Assembly: GCF_014486675.1 (NCBI RefSeq) | Contig: NZ_JACTAC010000003.1 | Coordinates: 1-64,000, forward strand | Reading direction: 5' to 3' | Source of the DNA: Flavobacterium macrobrachii | Lineage (GTDB): Bacteria; Bacteroidota; Bacteroidia; Flavobacteriales; Flavobacteriaceae | DNA: 64,000 nucleotides | Part shown: one piece after another, positions 4,952 through 32,402 of the stretch | Layout of the letters: every line of letters begins with the position of its first letter | Numbering within the stretch: the stretch's first letter is position 1 | Notes under the pieces: model-generated | Databases searched by the model: none | The model's input: the letters and a program-made list of their open reading frames with translations, nothing else | Told to the model about the DNA's origin: nothing | Position numbers and translations under genes: made by a program

Positions 4952-5860
4952 TTATATTTCTTTAACCGTATTCACAATCGTTCCAATTCCTTCAACAGTA
5001 GCTTCCACAACATCGCCATCGTACATCCATTCTTGTGGATTTCTTCCTGCGCCAACGCCTGATGGAGTTCCGGTTGCAATGATATCGCCTGGTTCTAAAG
5101 TGAAAACGATACTCAAATCTTCAATTAAATCATTAATGTTGAAAAGTAAGAATTTTGTATTTGAGTTTTGTTTCTCAACGCCGTTCACTTTTAATGATAA
5201 ATTCAGGTTGTGTGGATTTTCGATTTCGTCTTTGGTGACTAAAATTGGTCCCATTGGCGCAAAGGTATCTTGACCTTTTGATACAATCCATTGTCCTTCA
5301 CGACGACAATCACGAGCCGAAATATCGTTGATTACAGTATATCCAAAAACATAATCCATTGCATCTTCTTTAGCAACATATTTTCCTTTTTTACCAATTA
5401 CCACTGCTAATTCCACTTCCCAATCCAATTGTTCGGTTAGTTTTGTGTTTTTGATGATTTCGGTATTTGTGGATGTAACGGTTGTTGGTGGTTTTGAGAA
5501 AATGATTGGTTTTTGAGGAAGTTTTCCAGTTGTGTCTAATGTTCGAGCACTTTCTGCAACGTGTTCCGTGTAATTTAAACCTATTCCGATGATATTTTTT
5601 CGAGGTTTTTCGATAGGAGCGAGGATGGTTACTTCGTCCATTTCATAACAGATTTCTTCGAAGAAATTTTCTGGAGTTTCTGAAATCATTTCGGTGATTT
5701 CGGCAATTATTTCATATCCCATGTCGATTAAATCCAACATATCATTTGGCAATGGGAAATTGGATATTTCGCCAAAATCCTCCATGTCAATTACTTGATT
5801 GTTATGGATGAAGCCTAATCTTGGTTCGGTGTCTTGTGTTTTGTAGGTAAGTAGTTTCAT
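4952..5860 (-). CDS. fumarylacetoacetate hydrolase family protein, probable maleylpyruvate/fumarylpyruvate hydrolase
   Basis: 302 residues. FAH-fold enzymes hydrolyse C-C bonds of 3-acylpyruvates with a metal ion. Visible family marks: N-terminal lead MKLLTYKTQD, GIGLNYTEHVAES, FSKPPTTVTS, metal-binding region DWEVELAVVIGKKG, and GDIIATGTPSGVG near the C-terminus. Between gentisate dioxygenase and maleate isomerase, with no maleylpyruvate isomerase visible, the best assignment is hydrolysis of maleylpyruvate to maleate plus pyruvate. Its ATG overlaps the stop of the upstream protease gene by one base (TAATG). Its first seven codons are duplicated at the start of that upstream gene (see findings). 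Confidence 0.88.
   Translation of the reverse strand: MKLLTYKTQDTEPRLGFIHNNQVIDMEDFGEISNFPLPNDMLDLIDMGYEIIAEITEMISETPENFFEEICYEMDEVTILAPIEKPRKNIIGIGLNYTEHVAESARTLDTTGKLPQKPIIFSKPPTTVTSTNTEIIKNTKLTEQLDWEVELAVVIGKKGKYVAKEDAMDYVFGYTVINDISARDCRREGQWIVSKGQDTFAPMGPILVTKDEIENPHNLNLSLKVNGVEKQNSNTKFLLFNINDLIEDLSIVFTLEPGDIIATGTPSGVGAGRNPQEWMYDGDVVEATVEGIGTIVNTVKEI
5840..5860 (-). repeat. start-region direct repeat, copy at FAH gene
   Basis: These 21 bases encode MKLLTYK, the start of the FAH-family gene, and are identical to 7045-7065 at the start of the upstream protease gene. The two copies bracket the protease body in direct orientation, 1205 bp apart. Confidence 0.85.
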
Positions 5861-7065
5861 TATTTTTCAATTTTTATTGTAAAGGTAGTGTTGTCTTCTC
5901 TTAAAATTTCCATTTCATAGCTTGATTTTTCTTTAATTAATTGTCTGGTCATTAAAATATCACAAGTGTTCATTTCTCTAAAATTGTAGCTATCCAAACG
6001 TATCACTTCATCACCAAATTGAATTTTATCCAAATAATCGTTATTCCATACATGTCCTATAATTATCTTATGATTTTCATTGAATGACAATGACACTGGT
6101 GGCTGTTTATCGTTTAAATTGATTTTTTCTTCGGCTTCAAAATAGAATTTTTTGTTTTTAAAATCAATAATAACATCTCCGTATTTCAGTAAATCAAGTC
6201 CTATTCGGGAGTTATCGTCATCTGTAGTTGTCGTTATGATATTTTCAAAACTGGTCTGATTAATTTTTAGTGCATTGATTTTTACAAGATGTTGTTCTTT
6301 TGAGTCATTAACTCCAAAAAGGCCAATATCGGCGGCTCCAATATTGGAGGCTAATTTTTCAACGATATTTTCTTTTTGAAACAGTGTGTTGATGCGATTT
6401 GAAATGTCATATAATCCGTCCATTCCCGTATCTAAAAGTGCATATTCGGTTCCTATATCGCAGTTTTTTCCAGAAATTGTTAAGGCAACAAAAGGCGATT
6501 TTTGTGCGCCAACTAGTTTTAATTTTGTGGGTTTGGCGGTAGGTTTAAGTTTTTTAACATCATTAGTAATTACTATTTTTTTATCTTTTAAACTTATTTT
6601 AAGCACTGAGTTTTGTAATAAATTACTACCAATAAAACCGTCAATTCCATAACATTTTAAAAGGAAATGATTGTTTAAATCAGATACGATAGCTGCTGAG
6701 TTTCGAAAATCTAAATCATTTATTTTAATAGACTTTACAAGTACAAGATTCATCTCTTGCTGCTTATTATTAGCATCTGAAACTGAAATATTTTTTTGAT
6801 TTTCAATTTCTAACTCTTTTAAAACGGTATTAGAAATTATATTTGGCGCACCAGTATCCAATAAGAATTTATAGGTTTTATTATTTATCGTTACGGGAAT
6901 TATAATTTTCTTTAAAACTAGTTCAAAATCCAACTCTTGATAATAATCCTTTTGATTTATTGTAATGCTAGTAAAATCAACCTTTTGTGCTTGGTTTACA
7001 CTTGAAATTAATAGTAAAATAAAAAACAAAAATGTTTTAAATGCTTTGTAGGTAAGTAGTTTCAT
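5860..7065 (-). CDS. secreted retropepsin-like aspartyl protease with C-terminal PDZ-like domain
   Basis: 401 residues. A hydrophobic signal segment follows the start (FKTFLFFILLLISSVNQAQ), so it is probably periplasmic. Two half-sites typical of retropepsin-like proteases are seen: FLLDTGAPNIIS (about residues 68-79) and YALLDTGMDGLYDIS (about 208-222). The last ~80 residues look like a PDZ-like domain. It is out of place in an aromatic-degradation operon. Its first seven residues MKLLTYK and 21 nt of DNA are identical to the start of the downstream FAH gene, suggesting insertion. Substrate unknown. Confidence 0.85.
   Translation of the reverse strand: MKLLTYKAFKTFLFFILLLISSVNQAQKVDFTSITINQKDYYQELDFELVLKKIIIPVTINNKTYKFLLDTGAPNIISNTVLKELEIENQKNISVSDANNKQQEMNLVLVKSIKINDLDFRNSAAIVSDLNNHFLLKCYGIDGFIGSNLLQNSVLKISLKDKKIVITNDVKKLKPTAKPTKLKLVGAQKSPFVALTISGKNCDIGTEYALLDTGMDGLYDISNRINTLFQKENIVEKLASNIGAADIGLFGVNDSKEQHLVKINALKINQTSFENIITTTTDDDNSRIGLDLLKYGDVIIDFKNKKFYFEAEEKINLNDKQPPVSLSFNENHKIIIGHVWNNDYLDKIQFGDEVIRLDSYNFREMNTCDILMTRQLIKEKSSYEMEILREDNTTFTIKIEK
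7045..7065 (-). repeat. start-region direct repeat, copy at protease gene
   Basis: Second copy of the 21-bp word at 5840-5860, placed exactly at the start codon of the aspartyl protease. Beyond the start codon the two upstream flanks differ. Confidence 0.85.
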
Positions 7066-7147
7066 ATTTTTTTTTTAACTGCAAAGAACGCTAAGTTTGA
7101 CGCGAAGTTCGCAAAGTTTTTTTTAGTGATTATGCAATGTCTATTTT

Positions 7148-7189
7148 CTTTATTCTTTTCTCTTTATTCTTTTCTCTTTATTCTATTTT
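7148..7189. repeat. short tandem repeat at the 3' end of gentisate dioxygenase
   Basis: About three copies of a 14-bp pyrimidine-rich unit (CTTTATTCTTTTCT) at 7148-7161, 7162-7175 and 7176-7189, the last imperfect. The array overlaps the stop codon of the dioxygenase gene. The period is not a multiple of three, so copy changes would alter the C-terminus only slightly. Confidence 0.7.
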
Positions 7190-8287
7190 CTGATTTCCAT
7201 TATTTTCTTCTAATTCTCGTGACTGATATAATCCTAATTTTTCAATAACTGGTAAGTCGTTGAACGAGAACAAACATGCATCTTCCGTTTTGGATAAATT
7301 ATGATGTTCGTGCCATGCCCAACTTGGAACGCAGAAAATATCCCGTTCTTTCCAGTCAAATCGTTTTCCGTTGATGATGGAATAGCCGATTCCTTTGGCA
7401 CATTGGTACACAAACGAACCTGTATGTTTATGCGCTTTTCCTTTGAAACCAGCTGGTAATAATTGCATCGAAGCACTCATGGTTTGCATGACATGACCAC
7501 CAGTTAATGGATTGGAATACTGCATTAAAATTCCATCAAACGGATTGATTTCATTGACTTTTACAGCTTCTAATAATGCTGGATAAACAGTTTTCCAAGA
7601 ATATTTGAATAATGGTGAATAGGGTTTGTCCCAAGCTTTATCCGCAGGAATAAATCCCGAAGTTCCATAAGTTAAAGGTGAATAATTTACTGGAAAATCT
7701 AATGGTTGTTTGCCATCATAAACTGCATAATCATTGGCCTCTAAAGCATTTACCAACGGAATATCCAATCCGTCTTGCCAGATGCAGGTTTTTCCGTTTG
7801 CATCAACGCCGTGTTCGTGCCAAGTGGAATTTGGAGTAATCACAAAATCGTTGACTTCAAATGTGATTTTGTTTCCGTCAACCACAGTATATCCGCCTTC
7901 GCCTTCCATAATGAAGCGCAATGCCGATGCTTTGTGTTTGTGTGCTGATGTACTTTCGCCTGGACGTGTAACTTGAATTCCAGTGTACAACCAACCAACA
8001 GCTGCGGAAACGTCTTTTCGTTTGTCGTTTACTAGATAAACAACGCGTCTTCCTGCTTGTTCTGGCGTAACTAATTCGGATGATTTTAGCACTAATTCGC
8101 GTAAATCATCGTATTTCCAAAGCATTGGAACTGATGAACTTCTTGGTTCCCAAGGCTCGATATCGTTAGCAACTGTCCATAATGCGCCAGCTCCAAGGGT
8201 TTCTAGTTCTTTGTAGTATGCCTCGAGTTCTGGTGTGTCGTGAACTCGCGCTCTTCCTATTTGATCGTCTGAATGATTTTCGTTCAT
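7178..8287 (-). CDS. gentisate 1,2-dioxygenase (bicupin)
   Basis: 369 residues. It opens the gentisate (2,5-dihydroxybenzoate) ring with O2 and Fe(II), giving maleylpyruvate. First cupin: metal histidines in SAHKHKASALRF (His116, His118) and STWHEHG (His157, His159). The second cupin is seen at KAHKHTGSFVYQ and PSWAWHEHHN. N-terminal phrase LWTVANDIEPWEPRS and length match the family. This is the key gene identifying the operon as a gentisate pathway. Start ATG 8287; a nested hairpin precedes it at 8304-8365. Confidence 0.93.
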   Translation of the reverse strand: MNENHSDDQIGRARVHDTPELEAYYKELETLGAGALWTVANDIEPWEPRSSSVPMLWKYDDLRELVLKSSELVTPEQAGRRVVYLVNDKRKDVSAAVGWLYTGIQVTRPGESTSAHKHKASALRFIMEGEGGYTVVDGNKITFEVNDFVITPNSTWHEHGVDANGKTCIWQDGLDIPLVNALEANDYAVYDGKQPLDFPVNYSPLTYGTSGFIPADKAWDKPYSPLFKYSWKTVYPALLEAVKVNEINPFDGILMQYSNPLTGGHVMQTMSASMQLLPAGFKGKAHKHTGSFVYQCAKGIGYSIINGKRFDWKERDIFCVPSWAWHEHHNLSKTEDACLFSFNDLPVIEKLGLYQSRELEENNGNQKIE

Positions 8288-9408: not shown

Positions 9409-9828
9409 TTATGAATTTAAATATATATTAATTTTATCTTTCATTTCCTCATTAAAAGCTTCGGCTTTGATGCTTTGTCTGTCTTCTTGAATGGCTACGC
9501 TTACTAGTGTTACTTCGCCTTCGAGTACGGTTTTTTCTTGTTGGTTTATAAATTGAAATCCGCAGATGATGGAGGAGTTTTTTAGTTCTTTTACCCAAAG
9601 TGATTTGGTTAGAATTTCGCCAATTCTTGCTGCGTTTTTGAATTGCACTTTTAAATCAACGGTTGGAATTCCGTTGGTTTCGTGAATTTTGGAAAATGGT
9701 CTTTCCAATGCTTCTTCAAACCAGTCTTCGACTAAATCGTTGAGCATTTCTAAAAATCGTGGATAGAACACTATTCCGGCGTAGTCGATGTGTTTGAAAC
9801 GTATTTTTTCTTGTTTTATGAATTTCAT
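9409..9828 (-). CDS. hotdog-fold thioesterase, 4-hydroxybenzoyl-CoA thioesterase type
   Basis: 139 residues. The motif HIDYAGIVFYPRF (Asp15-Tyr16) is the active-site signature of 4-hydroxybenzoyl-CoA thioesterases. In context it would release gentisate from gentisyl-CoA after the ring hydroxylase, before ring opening. It has the usual single-domain length of the family. It lies downstream of the aryl-CoA ligase and the CoA-dependent hydroxylase, which supports an aryl-CoA substrate over the acyl-CoA housekeeping (YbgC-like) alternative. Confidence 0.85.
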   Translation of the reverse strand: MKFIKQEKIRFKHIDYAGIVFYPRFLEMLNDLVEDWFEEALERPFSKIHETNGIPTVDLKVQFKNAARIGEILTKSLWVKELKNSSIICGFQFINQQEKTVLEGEVTLVSVAIQEDRQSIKAEAFNEEMKDKINIYLNS

Positions 9829-10059
9829 TAGTTATTTTTTTACATGAATTGCACAAATTTGCACGAATTCAGATGATTGTGTTTATTTTACTTATTTTTT
9901 GCCACGGATTAAACTGATTTTACAGATTAACACGGATTTTAAATTTGTTACTAGTTATTCCTGATGTTTTAGCCCAGATAGTAGTGGAAATCCTTTTCTT
10001 TTTTTCTTTAAAAAAAGAAAAGATTGCAACGGATAGCTGGAAATAGCTCCAAAAAATAA
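9829..10059. other. repeat-rich intergenic segment inside the aromatic operon
   Basis: No ORF. It holds the words GAATTGCACAAATTTGCACG (near 9846-9865) and CACGGATTAAACTGATTTTA (near 9903-9922), typical of flavobacterial intergenic repeats, then a copy of the dispersed hairpin element at 9967-10050. Confidence 0.6.
9967..10050 (-). repeat. dispersed hairpin element, copy A
   Basis: Read on the minus strand it shows the arm CCGTTGCAATCTTT, a variable stem of A/T tracts, then AGGATTTCCACTA and GGGCTAAA. The same arms in the same order occur at 16978-17039 and 55475-55577. The variable centre is self-complementary. No coding capacity; resembles a small non-autonomous element. Confidence 0.8.
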
Positions 10060-29901: not shown

Positions 29902-30516
29902 TTAAGAACGGTTTTTTTTCATGGCTTTTGCTATTTCAATCGCTTGATTTTCATTGGTTTTTTCAAGCTCAGAGATGATGTTTTGGTAGTTTTTGTCATC
30001 TCTATTTTGAGATAATTTCTTTTGGGCTTCGATACTTGAGATTTCTATTTCAAATGAGACAATTCCTCGAGCTTCGCGCATTGTTTTTTCAGATAAATCT
30101 TCAATTCGAATGGGTTTCTCCGATTTTGATTCGTATTTATTAATCAGTTTTTTCAAACTTTCGATGCTTTCTTCATAAGTATGCAAACGCACTTTTCCAT
30201 AAACATGCACGGCAAGATAATTCCATGTTGGAACATTTTCATGGTCATACCACGAAGACGAGATATAGGAATGTGAACCACTAAAAATTGCCAAAACTTC
30301 GTCGTTTTGATTGAAACTTTCCGCTTGAGGATTTAATTTAGAAATATGTCCGATTAAAATTTGTTCACCATTGGAATTTGTTCCCAAAATCAGCGGAATA
30401 TGTGTTGCCCAAAGTTTTCCATTAGTTTGATTAACCAAAATAGCAAAGCCGTTTTCGTGTAGAAATTGCTCAATTTCCGTTTGATTTTCGTTTTTATATA
30501 AGTTTGGGATATACAT
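29902..30516 (-). CDS. PaiB-like FMN-binding negative transcriptional regulator family protein
   Basis: 204 residues. MYIPNLYKNENQTEIEQF and FSGSHSYISSSWYDHENVPT, NYLAVHVYGKVR are typical of PaiB (FMN-binding split-barrel). In Bacillus the family represses sporulation genes; in Bacteroidetes the role is unknown. It begins 5 bp after the PhyH-like gene, and the first 11 codons of the two genes are near-identical (see findings). Confidence 0.88.
   Translation of the reverse strand: MYIPNLYKNENQTEIEQFLHENGFAILVNQTNGKLWATHIPLILGTNSNGEQILIGHISKLNPQAESFNQNDEVLAIFSGSHSYISSSWYDHENVPTWNYLAVHVYGKVRLHTYEESIESLKKLINKYESKSEKPIRIEDLSEKTMREARGIVSFEIEISSIEAQKKLSQNRDDKNYQNIISELEKTNENQAIEIAKAMKKNRS
30483..30516 (-). 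repeat. start-region repeat, copy at PaiB-like gene
   Basis: 34 bases encoding the first 11 residues MYIPNLYKNEN. They match 31232-31265, the start of the upstream PhyH-like gene, at 29 of 34 positions. Confidence 0.75.
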
Positions 30517-30521
30517 GGTTT

Positions 30522-31265
30522 TTATATAGTTGTGAATTCAGCCCAATTCAGATTTTCAGGCAATAGCTGATTTGAAAATTCAATATGTATAACTCTTCTT
30601 CGATTCTGATTTGTCGTTTTGCCCGAACTATGAAGTAATAAAGGTTTCATAAGCATTACGCCGCCACTTTTTACATTGCAAACAGTTTCTTTTTCAGTAT
30701 TCCAATCAATAGTTTCCGGACGATAAACAGCTTTTAAATGAGATTTTTCGATTACTTTTAGAGCGCCATTATTTTCATTGGTATCATCAAGATGTATTCG
30801 GATAGTGAAAATATTTTCCAAAAAATTTAATGGCGGTTGAACAGCAAATTGATTGTGTTTTTTTGTCCAATTATTAAAATCGGTTTGCTCTATTTTTTTG
30901 TCTACAGAAATTGTCAAATCTTGATGATAGGAAACAAACCAATTTGATTTTTCAGGTTTATCGAAATAGATTGATTTTACTACGAAATAATCATTTCCAC
31001 ATATCAAACTTATTAAATTAATCAAGTTTTGGTTAAAAATTAAATTCTTGATTTCTGGAACTTCTTTTAAAAATTGACGAATAGCAAAAAGATCTTCAGA
31101 TTTTCTGAAAATTGGATTTGAGGTGTCAAGTTCATTAATTAATTTTCCAATTGCTGTTATTTCATGAGTGTTATAAACGTTTTCAACTATACCAAAACCA
31201 TTTTCTTCGAAAAAAGATTTTGCTTCCAAAAGATTTTCGTTTTTGTATGAGTTTGCAATGTACAT
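30522..31265 (-). CDS. phytanoyl-CoA dioxygenase (PhyH) family protein
   Basis: 247 residues. Fe(II)/2-oxoglutarate oxygenase fold: metal motif in VSYHQDLTIS (HxD) and the distal His in LLLHSSGKTTNQNRRR, with IRIHLDDTNENNGALKV between. The substrate is unknown. Its start MYIANSYKNEN copies the start of the adjacent PaiB-like gene, which is not a PhyH family feature. Confidence 0.87.
   Translation of the reverse strand: MYIANSYKNENLLEAKSFFEENGFGIVENVYNTHEITAIGKLINELDTSNPIFRKSEDLFAIRQFLKEVPEIKNLIFNQNLINLISLICGNDYFVVKSIYFDKPEKSNWFVSYHQDLTISVDKKIEQTDFNNWTKKHNQFAVQPPLNFLENIFTIRIHLDDTNENNGALKVIEKSHLKAVYRPETIDWNTEKETVCNVKSGGVMLMKPLLLHSSGKTTNQNRRRVIHIEFSNQLLPENLNWAEFTTI
31232..31265 (-). repeat. start-region repeat, copy at PhyH-like gene
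   Basis: 34 bases encoding MYIANSYKNEN; 29/34 identical to 30483-30516 in direct orientation, 749 bp apart. Confidence 0.75.
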
Positions 31266-31335
31266 TTTAATTGAGAATTACGAATTGTAGATTATGAATT
31301 ACGATATTTAAAAATCTTAAATTTAAAATCTAATA

Positions 31336-32349
31336 TTAAATCACATTAACCTCTGCTTCAATTTCAATTCCATATTTATCAAAAATGGTTTTTTGGACAT
31401 ATTTTGATAAGTTTAAAATATCTTGACCAGTTGCATTTCCGTAGTTTACTAAAACCAATGCTTGATTTTTATGAACTCCAGCATCGCCGTTTCGGTAACC
31501 TTTTAAACCGGCATTTTCGATTAACCAACCAGCTGGAACTTTTACTTCTGTTGGCGAAACTTCAAAATGTTTTACCTCAGGAAATTTGGCTTGGACTTTT
31601 TCGAATAGTTCTTTTGAAATCACTGGGTTTTTAAAGAAACTTCCGCTGTTTCCAAGTTCTTTTGGATTGGGTAATTTTGTGTTTCTAATGGCAATCACAG
31701 CATTGGAAACGTCTTTTATCGTTGGATTAGTAACGTTATTCTTGGCTAATTCGGCTTTGATGTCGCCATAATCGATATTGATAATGTGACTGTGTTTTTT
31801 TAGCTTAAAAACAACCGAAGTGATGATGTATTTATCTTTGACTTCTTGTTTGAAAATACTTTCTCGGTAACCAAATTTACATTCGTCTTTAGTAAACGTT
31901 TTTACTTCTTGCGTTTCAATGTTCATTGTATCACAACTCACAAAACTATCTTTGATTTCGGCTCCATAAGCACCAATATTTTGTACTGGAGTTGTGCCAA
32001 CATTTCCTGGAATTAGTGACATATTTTCTAATCCGCCGAAGTTTTGATCAATCGTCCAAAGCACAAACTCGTGCCAAACTTCGCCAGCTTGACTTTCAAC
32101 CCAAACAAAATCGTCGTTTTCTTTGATGATTTTTTTTCCTTTCAAATCAATATGAATAACCAAAGCATCAATGTCCTGTGTCAACAGCATGTTACTTCCG
32201 CCGCCAAGAATGAATTTTTTTTCTGAGGAATGATTTTTCAAAATAGCTTGTAATTCGGCTAAATTATGAACGGCAACAAATTGCTTTGCTTTGGTTTCAA
32301 TTCCAAAAGTGTTGTAGTTTTTTAAAGAGAAATTAGTTTGAATTTGCAT
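31336..32349 (-). CDS. murB: UDP-N-acetylenolpyruvoylglucosamine reductase
   Basis: 337 residues. FAD enzyme reducing UDP-GlcNAc-enolpyruvate to UDP-MurNAc in cell-wall synthesis. Visible: FSLKNYNTFGIE, FILGGGSNMLL, GLENMSLIPGNVGTTPVQNIGAYG (shown in part), YRESIFK, NSGSFFKNPV and GWLIENAGLKG. I start at ATG 32349 (MQIQTNF); the longer frame upstream runs through AAGTTCGCAAAG-type repeat DNA. Confidence 0.94.
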   Translation of the reverse strand: MQIQTNFSLKNYNTFGIETKAKQFVAVHNLAELQAILKNHSSEKKFILGGGSNMLLTQDIDALVIHIDLKGKKIIKENDDFVWVESQAGEVWHEFVLWTIDQNFGGLENMSLIPGNVGTTPVQNIGAYGAEIKDSFVSCDTMNIETQEVKTFTKDECKFGYRESIFKQEVKDKYIITSVVFKLKKHSHIINIDYGDIKAELAKNNVTNPTIKDVSNAVIAIRNTKLPNPKELGNSGSFFKNPVISKELFEKVQAKFPEVKHFEVSPTEVKVPAGWLIENAGLKGYRNGDAGVHKNQALVLVNYGNATGQDILNLSKYVQKTIFDKYGIEIEAEVNVI

Positions 32350-32351
32350 TT

Positions 32352-32402
32352 TTTTGAAATTTAACCGCAAAGTTCGCAAAGTTTTTCGCAAAGTTCACAA
32401 TG
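32352..32402. repeat. degenerate CGCAAAGTT repeats
   Basis: Three close repeats of CGCAAAGTT (or its variant) lie upstream of murB. Similar words (AAGTTCGCAAAG, AAGTTCACAAAG) occur at 7100-7116 and 42274-42290, so this is a dispersed intergenic word. Confidence 0.6.

Follow-up and report, generated by a model that had tools for sequence, protein, structure and literature searches.

Two adjacent genes in the window, the whole 64,000-nucleotide stretch of Flavobacterium macrobrachii DNA analyzed here, begin with the same 21 bases, and the question raised by this locus is how an aspartyl protease gene came to carry the start of the FAH gene that follows it. A preliminary description of the window had proposed that a gene body entered exactly at the FAH start codon while duplicating the leader, and it had pointed to a second pair with the same anatomy, a PhyH gene before a PaiB-like gene. 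We analyzed both pairs and found that, in each, imprecise recombination most likely joined the cargo gene just inside the start of the next gene. The features of the 2 loci are collected in Table 1. The names GDO, PaiB, and murB are working labels, "gentisate dioxygenase" being the name used in the preliminary description, and the gene at 31336..32349 is taken to be murB-like.

Table 1. Features of the protease-FAH locus (case 1) and the PhyH-PaiB locus (case 2), in positions of the window
Feature	Position	Strand	Evidence or remark
GDO, cupin gene, gentisate-dioxygenase-like; conserved left neighbor of the first slot	7178..8287	-	Open reading frame and PF07883
GDO-protease intergenic region, 112 bp	7066..7177	-	Equivalent of the GDO-FAH intergenic region in empty-slot relatives
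First leader copy, FAH codons 1-7 (MKLLTYK), now the protease start	7045..7065	-	21/21 to 5840-5860
Putative chimeric junction	7044/7045	-	
Aspartyl (retropepsin-like) protease gene, cargo of the first slot	5860..7065	-	PF13650/PF13975
TAATG shared by the protease stop and the FAH start codon; right-hand boundary of the cargo	5858..5862	-	Probably inherited from the filled form
Second leader copy, native FAH start	5840..5860	-	Single-copy near GDO in empty-slot relatives
FAH-family gene, conserved right neighbor of the first slot	4952..5860	-	PF01557
murB-like gene, conserved left neighbor of the second slot	31336..32349	-	Upstream of PaiB in 29/29 relatives' loci
PaiB-type leader, ~34 bases, at the PhyH start	31232..31265	-	29/34 to the window's PaiB start
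PhyH gene, cargo of the second slot	30522..31265	-	PF05721
FMN_bind_2 (PaiB-like) gene, conserved right neighbor of the second slot	29902..30516	-	PF04299; native start 30483-30516

The 21/21 identity between 5840-5860 and 7045-7065 and the TAATG overlap, both reported earlier, are present in the sequence, and the described layout of leader, cargo body, leader, and native gene was borne out. As had also been claimed, the protease (PF13650/PF13975) and FAH (PF01557) belong to different families, with no similarity beyond the start (best blastp E 0.13). Across the whole genome of 3,453,601 bases, the 21-mer occurs at up to 2 mismatches only at these 2 sites, and within the window they are still the only sites at up to 3 mismatches, with 0.00 expected in shuffles. 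A slightly degenerate leader (at most 1 mismatch) was identified in 87 of 398 genomes of the genus, and 2 adjacent leader copies were found in the window's genome only (1/398); G388 and G380 have a second leader site, with 1 mismatch, on a different contig. The shared start might be a chance likeness, given how frequent ATGAAA is at gene starts, or an assembly artifact at a 21-base word, a length in use among assemblers. We consider this extremely improbable, as the genome contains no other instance of the 21-mer pair, a word-based misjoin would require the leader to stand before the protease already, and the 2 copies of case 2 have diverged (29/34).

The GDO-FAH interval is a gene-gain slot that is present in Flavobacterium in an empty or a protease-filled form. 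Searches of the 398 genomes of the genus gave matches to the protease in 56 (E 1e-20) and to GDO in 153 (E 1e-100), and the protease was located directly before FAH in 22 fetched loci besides that of the window. GDO precedes the protease in 21 of these 22 filled loci, which are all those whose contig reaches far enough, L043 being without GDO. FAH in the filled loci begins with MKL[LVA]TY, and the preliminary description had regarded MKLLTYK starts with the same DNA on relatives' protease genes far from any FAH gene as the observation that would refute its reading. None of the 22 slot proteases begins like FAH: their starts (MIKTLNY, MIRLN, MKKW, and others) share 4 to 13 of the 21 bases with that of FAH. 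The empty form was assessed from GDO-FAH distances in 80 of the 87 leader-matching genomes, those with GDO and the leader on 1 contig, a count in which more divergent FAH starts do not appear. The protease was absent in 67 of these 80, the label being assigned by manual comparison of the protease and GDO search results. In the protease-free genomes, the distance from GDO to the FAH start was at most 150 bp in 53 of 67, 150-500 bp in 8, and 1-2.6 kb in 6. FAH thus lies close behind the dioxygenase with 1 leader in most genomes without the protease, as the preliminary description had anticipated, and its view of FAH as the native owner of the leader agrees with the single-copy leader near GDO in empty-slot relatives.

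The closest relatives of the window's GDO, G388 (98%) and G013 (97%), are both without the protease in the slot, with G013 having a 59-aa open reading frame there, and the best nucleotide matches of FAH were G388 (90.0%) and G200 (89.1%). We built a GDO tree of 49 rows from the fetched GDO loci, empty and filled, minus 7 duplicates (L043 has no GDO). The window grouped with the empty-form G388 and G013 with support 99/94, and with G388 at 88/81. The filled state needs 9 changes on this tree, a number that gives no rate because the rows were chosen. GDO itself may be mosaic, since it is ~97% identical to G388 at the 5' end but 86% at the 3' end, whereas the identity between G388 and G013 holds near 89% (84% in the last interval). 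Three imperfect 14-bp tandem units were also observed behind and across the GDO end (window 7140-7195), with a shorter related stretch in G388.

We determined the origin of each flank of the case 1 junction by scoring the 100 bases before a gene against the equivalent stretch of other loci, with 200 dinucleotide-preserving shuffles as the control, in 26 empty loci (of 29 relatives' loci, the other 3 being filled) and 21 of the 22 filled loci (all except L043). The stretch upstream of the window's protease matched FAH upstreams of empty loci with z >5 in 8 of 26 (15.8, 13.4, 13.1, 13.0, 8.2, 7.5, 6.3, and 5.2) and with z below 5 in the remaining 18; in the filled loci (n = 21), the maximum z was 2.8 against protease upstreams and 3.2 against FAH upstreams. 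The matching intergenic element is dispersed yet rare, with a score of at least 39 in 2 of 1,706 gene upstreams, 1 of them an FAH site, and of at least 27.5 in 7 of 1,706, including 2 FAH sites. On the other side, the bases that precede FAH in the window and form the 3' end of the protease matched the filled G164 with z 18. The G164 protease has 66% identity to that of the window, and its start, MIKTLNYI, aligns by eye with codon 8 of the window's protease (AFKTFLFF), which leaves the latter with a 7-codon N-terminal extension as judged by eye. Because the G164 start stands opposite codon 8, the protease body appears by eye to begin, past the join, near its own codon 1 or 2. With a left flank of FAH type from empty loci and a right boundary matching filled G164, the locus reads as 1 chimeric junction, in which empty-form DNA extends through FAH codon 7 and filled-form DNA follows thereafter.

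Our first reading, in which the 21 bases of FAH were copied onto a resident protease, was overturned for case 1 by the empty-slot relatives and the upstream test. Template switching or gene conversion of this kind would agree with the protease being a common slot occupant, and the upstream evidence in case 2 is too weak to speak against it. In case 1, however, the protease is preceded by DNA of FAH type rather than of protease type, and its nearest relatives have an empty slot, which makes copying of the leader alone a very unlikely origin.

The proposal that a gene body came in precisely at the start codon and duplicated the leader on entry was not supported. The junction falls within FAH, 21 bases from its start, the protease recurs as an occupant of this slot in other species, and the TAATG boundary pre-exists, leaving only the left junction new; the overlap was also identified in L027, L002, and L045, all without a leader copy on the protease. 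The same 3 loci bear on transposition or site-specific insertion, in which the 21-bp repeats would be a target-site duplication or an attachment core. Direct repeats do flank the cargo, and dusA-type islands are described, in the available text, as entering the 5' end of a gene with 21-bp attachment sequences flanking them (PMC4482086). We nevertheless regard such insertion as highly improbable, as a right boundary that pre-exists without a leader copy does not agree with a target-site duplication, the insert between the leaders is the protease gene alone with no integrase, and leaders and cargo differ between the cases, with no conserved attachment sequence in a comparison that comprises 2 cases only. 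A dispersed intergenic repeat with the core CGCAAAGTTCGCAAAG was observed just before start codons at window 7070-7120 and 32355-32400, including that of the murB-like gene, and its 16-base core has 5 genome sites at up to 1 mismatch. This repeat was dropped as a candidate insertion agent, with 5 core sites in the genome and the junctions lying inside coding sequence.

The chimera in the window probably arose from a crossover of the empty and filled slot forms by homology-facilitated illegitimate recombination (HFIR), with PhyH/PaiB arising likewise and earlier. Incoming DNA would pair by homology on one side, which FAH offers by being common to both slot forms, and would be linked on the other with little or no homology between the partners; these, FAH codon 7 and the protease body, come from genes without mutual similarity. 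The left part of the window's locus, consisting of the intergenic region and the first 21 FAH bases, would then be empty-form DNA, and the right part, from near protease codon 1-2 through the protease-FAH boundary, would be filled-form DNA. Because the filled form would bring its own FAH start, the FAH leader would be present twice, and the protease would lose its own start and gain the FAH start codon plus 6 further codons. These codons are in frame with the protease body, and selection would keep a junction that leaves both genes translatable, for which an in-frame left junction is needed. Since a crossover of the 2 forms yields both leader copies, neither a special insertion mechanism nor an insertion enzyme would be needed.

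A donor-like tract or a donor-recipient breakpoint in FAH was sought by comparison with relatives and was not found, which counts against this route; FAH resembles the empty-form relatives from its first bases and is identical to G013 over 59 bases (by eye). An FAH that looks native from its first bases also agrees with another route, in which a circularized fragment, consisting of the protease body and the first FAH bases, would have integrated through one crossover within the FAH leader and used the 21 bases as homology. Such a circle gives the order leader, body, leader, and native gene exactly, and incoming linear DNA in E. coli can circularize and integrate by single crossover, according to the portion of the source at hand (PMC3240628). 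However, 21 bases are short for a RecA crossover, for which the accessible part of another text cites an E. coli threshold of ~30 bp (PMC2884548), and case 2 needs a different leader as homology, so that we consider circle integration unlikely. Under the preferred crossover of empty and filled forms, either form may have been the recipient: the window's lineage is otherwise empty-form in the tree, which favors gain of the protease, but an identical product would result if G388 and G013 had lost the protease and the left flank had been exchanged later. Taking over the neighbor's start region could matter for expression, because F. johnsoniae mRNAs naturally have no Shine-Dalgarno sequence and initiation depends on the nucleotides before the start and on mRNA structure, as stated in the available text (PMC6847099).

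In case 2, the PhyH and PaiB starts agree at 29 of 34 bases, confirming the second pair of the preliminary description. The first 34 PhyH bases agreed with 30 PaiB starts, the window's included, at 23-30 positions, and with 28 relatives' PhyH starts at 9-18 (L075, 1 of 29 PhyH loci, was left out with no PhyH start listed). None of the 28 relatives' PhyH proteins begins with MYI, and the PaiB start type in relatives is MY(I/T)P..YKNE(N/D). By these comparisons, the leader belongs to PaiB and not to PhyH. At the protein level, PhyH and FMN_bind_2 are 56% identical over residues 1-32 (E 1e-7), and removal of the first 30 residues left no similarity; since the similarity extends to residue 32, the PhyH leader may be longer than 34 bases.

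PhyH was located in the murB-PaiB gap in 1 of 29 relatives' loci, L171, and the order murB, PhyH, PaiB was also identified in the PhyH-derived loci L057, L058 (from the genome of L171), and L072. G200 and G388, which have the closest PaiB, harbor other genes in the gap, with a 222-aa gene without a Pfam hit in G200 (L231) and a 395-aa gene with an Imm26 domain in G388 (L232). The PhyH upstream matched PaiB upstreams of empty loci with z 5.8, 5.0, and 4.7 (3/29) and showed no likeness to the 2 PhyH upstreams tested. Its raw score is also reached by 13 of 1,706 background upstreams through a dispersed element, and this match is therefore supporting evidence only. The stretch before PaiB matched the filled L057 with z 19.6. 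Case 2 thus looks like case 1 and most likely has the same kind of origin, but it is older and less well supported. A second dispersed intergenic motif, of the GTAATTCATAATTCGTAATTC type, is present before PhyH (window 31266-31310) and before other genes. In L072 (G218), PhyH and PaiB form a single 450-aa open frame at 1471-2823, another type of joining in this slot, and the PhyH match in L088 (G164, ~9525-9848) is a C-terminal piece only, covering residues 139-246 of 247.

We searched for additional cases in 150 adjacent same-strand pairs from 244 kb of the window's own genome, the window included, and in other Flavobacterium sequence, where 89 stretches totaling 1.73 Mb, 13 of them chosen around the 2 slots and not blindly, gave 1,036 pairs. 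The search for adjacent unrelated genes with identical starts, suggested in the preliminary description, returned the 2 cases in the window but no third among 1,184 further adjacent pairs once paralogues and repeats are set aside. Ten other pairs scored at least 15, comprising 6 pairs of L118 repeat open reading frames and L131, L146, L248, and L255, and blastp of one L118 pair and the latter 4 identified paralogues or repeats. Near misses among unrelated pairs were L140, with an exact 14-base MKN-type start, and L132, with a score of 13.5. In an all-against-all comparison of the own-genome sample (24,090 gene pairs), 6 scored at least 15: a near-identical small-peptide pair, both cases, the L146 paralogues, and 2 MKK-type starts. 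About 1 pair per shuffle scored at least 16 in a shuffled control, which we tentatively attribute to L118 repeat open reading frames being dealt among themselves, and we therefore relied on the genome-wide 21-mer count, the all-against-all scores, and blastp instead. Two small genes with near-identical signal-peptide-like starts (MKKLFFSAVALV) were also observed close together in L087 (12038-13638). Both cases were pointed out in a single window beforehand, and their number here estimates no frequency.

The 2 natural junctions illustrate how a gene that enters a row can acquire a working start while bringing none and sparing the gene behind it. Leader capture as a recurrent route by which Flavobacterium slots take in genes is a tentative and rather doubtful generalization: an incoming gene would be kept if it falls in frame inside the next start, where it would use a proven start region, and the resident would keep a second copy. 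In a phylum whose mRNAs are naturally without Shine-Dalgarno sequences, such a gene may owe its expression to the start region and first codons. The signature, namely adjacent unrelated genes that share their first 20-35 bases together with empty-slot relatives, is searchable in any genome set, and such a search offers a way to test how newly gained genes come to be expressed. Chimeric starts may also account for some odd N-terminal extensions in annotated proteins. We see in the 2 loci an informative variation on a familiar mode of gene gain, and a literature search, with most subscription papers outside its coverage, returned no account of the shared-start signature.

Several known systems resemble these loci in part, as far as the available portions of the cited texts describe them. 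The dusA-targeting genomic islands have 21-bp repeats at the 5' end of a gene that is whole after insertion, as here, but they involve an integrase, a conserved target, and many genes, whereas the present insert is 1 gene with no integrase and the leader differs per case (PMC4482086). Among dimorphic loci and small variable segments, 10-18% of segments are flanked by direct repeats, mostly <30 bp; unlike here, the repeats are treated as deletion sites, and the portion of the text available has no mention of "start codon" (PMC2884548). The T6SS effector-immunity arrays of V. cholerae likewise gain genes into a fixed slot and keep the resident gene, but the anchor is upstream, and a start-codon leader is absent from the description in the accessible text (PMC5361080). 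HFIR is known in 3 competent species and occurs at low frequency in E. coli conjugation (PMC3240628), and it has been proposed for the V. cholerae immunity arrays (PMC5361080) and for dimorphic loci (PMC2884548), again within the parts of these texts at hand. In HFIR, as in the origin proposed here, foreign DNA is anchored by homology at one end and joined non-homologously at the other; unlike in the available HFIR texts, we infer the process for these loci, and the join lies in frame inside the first codons of the next gene, giving the cargo a new start.
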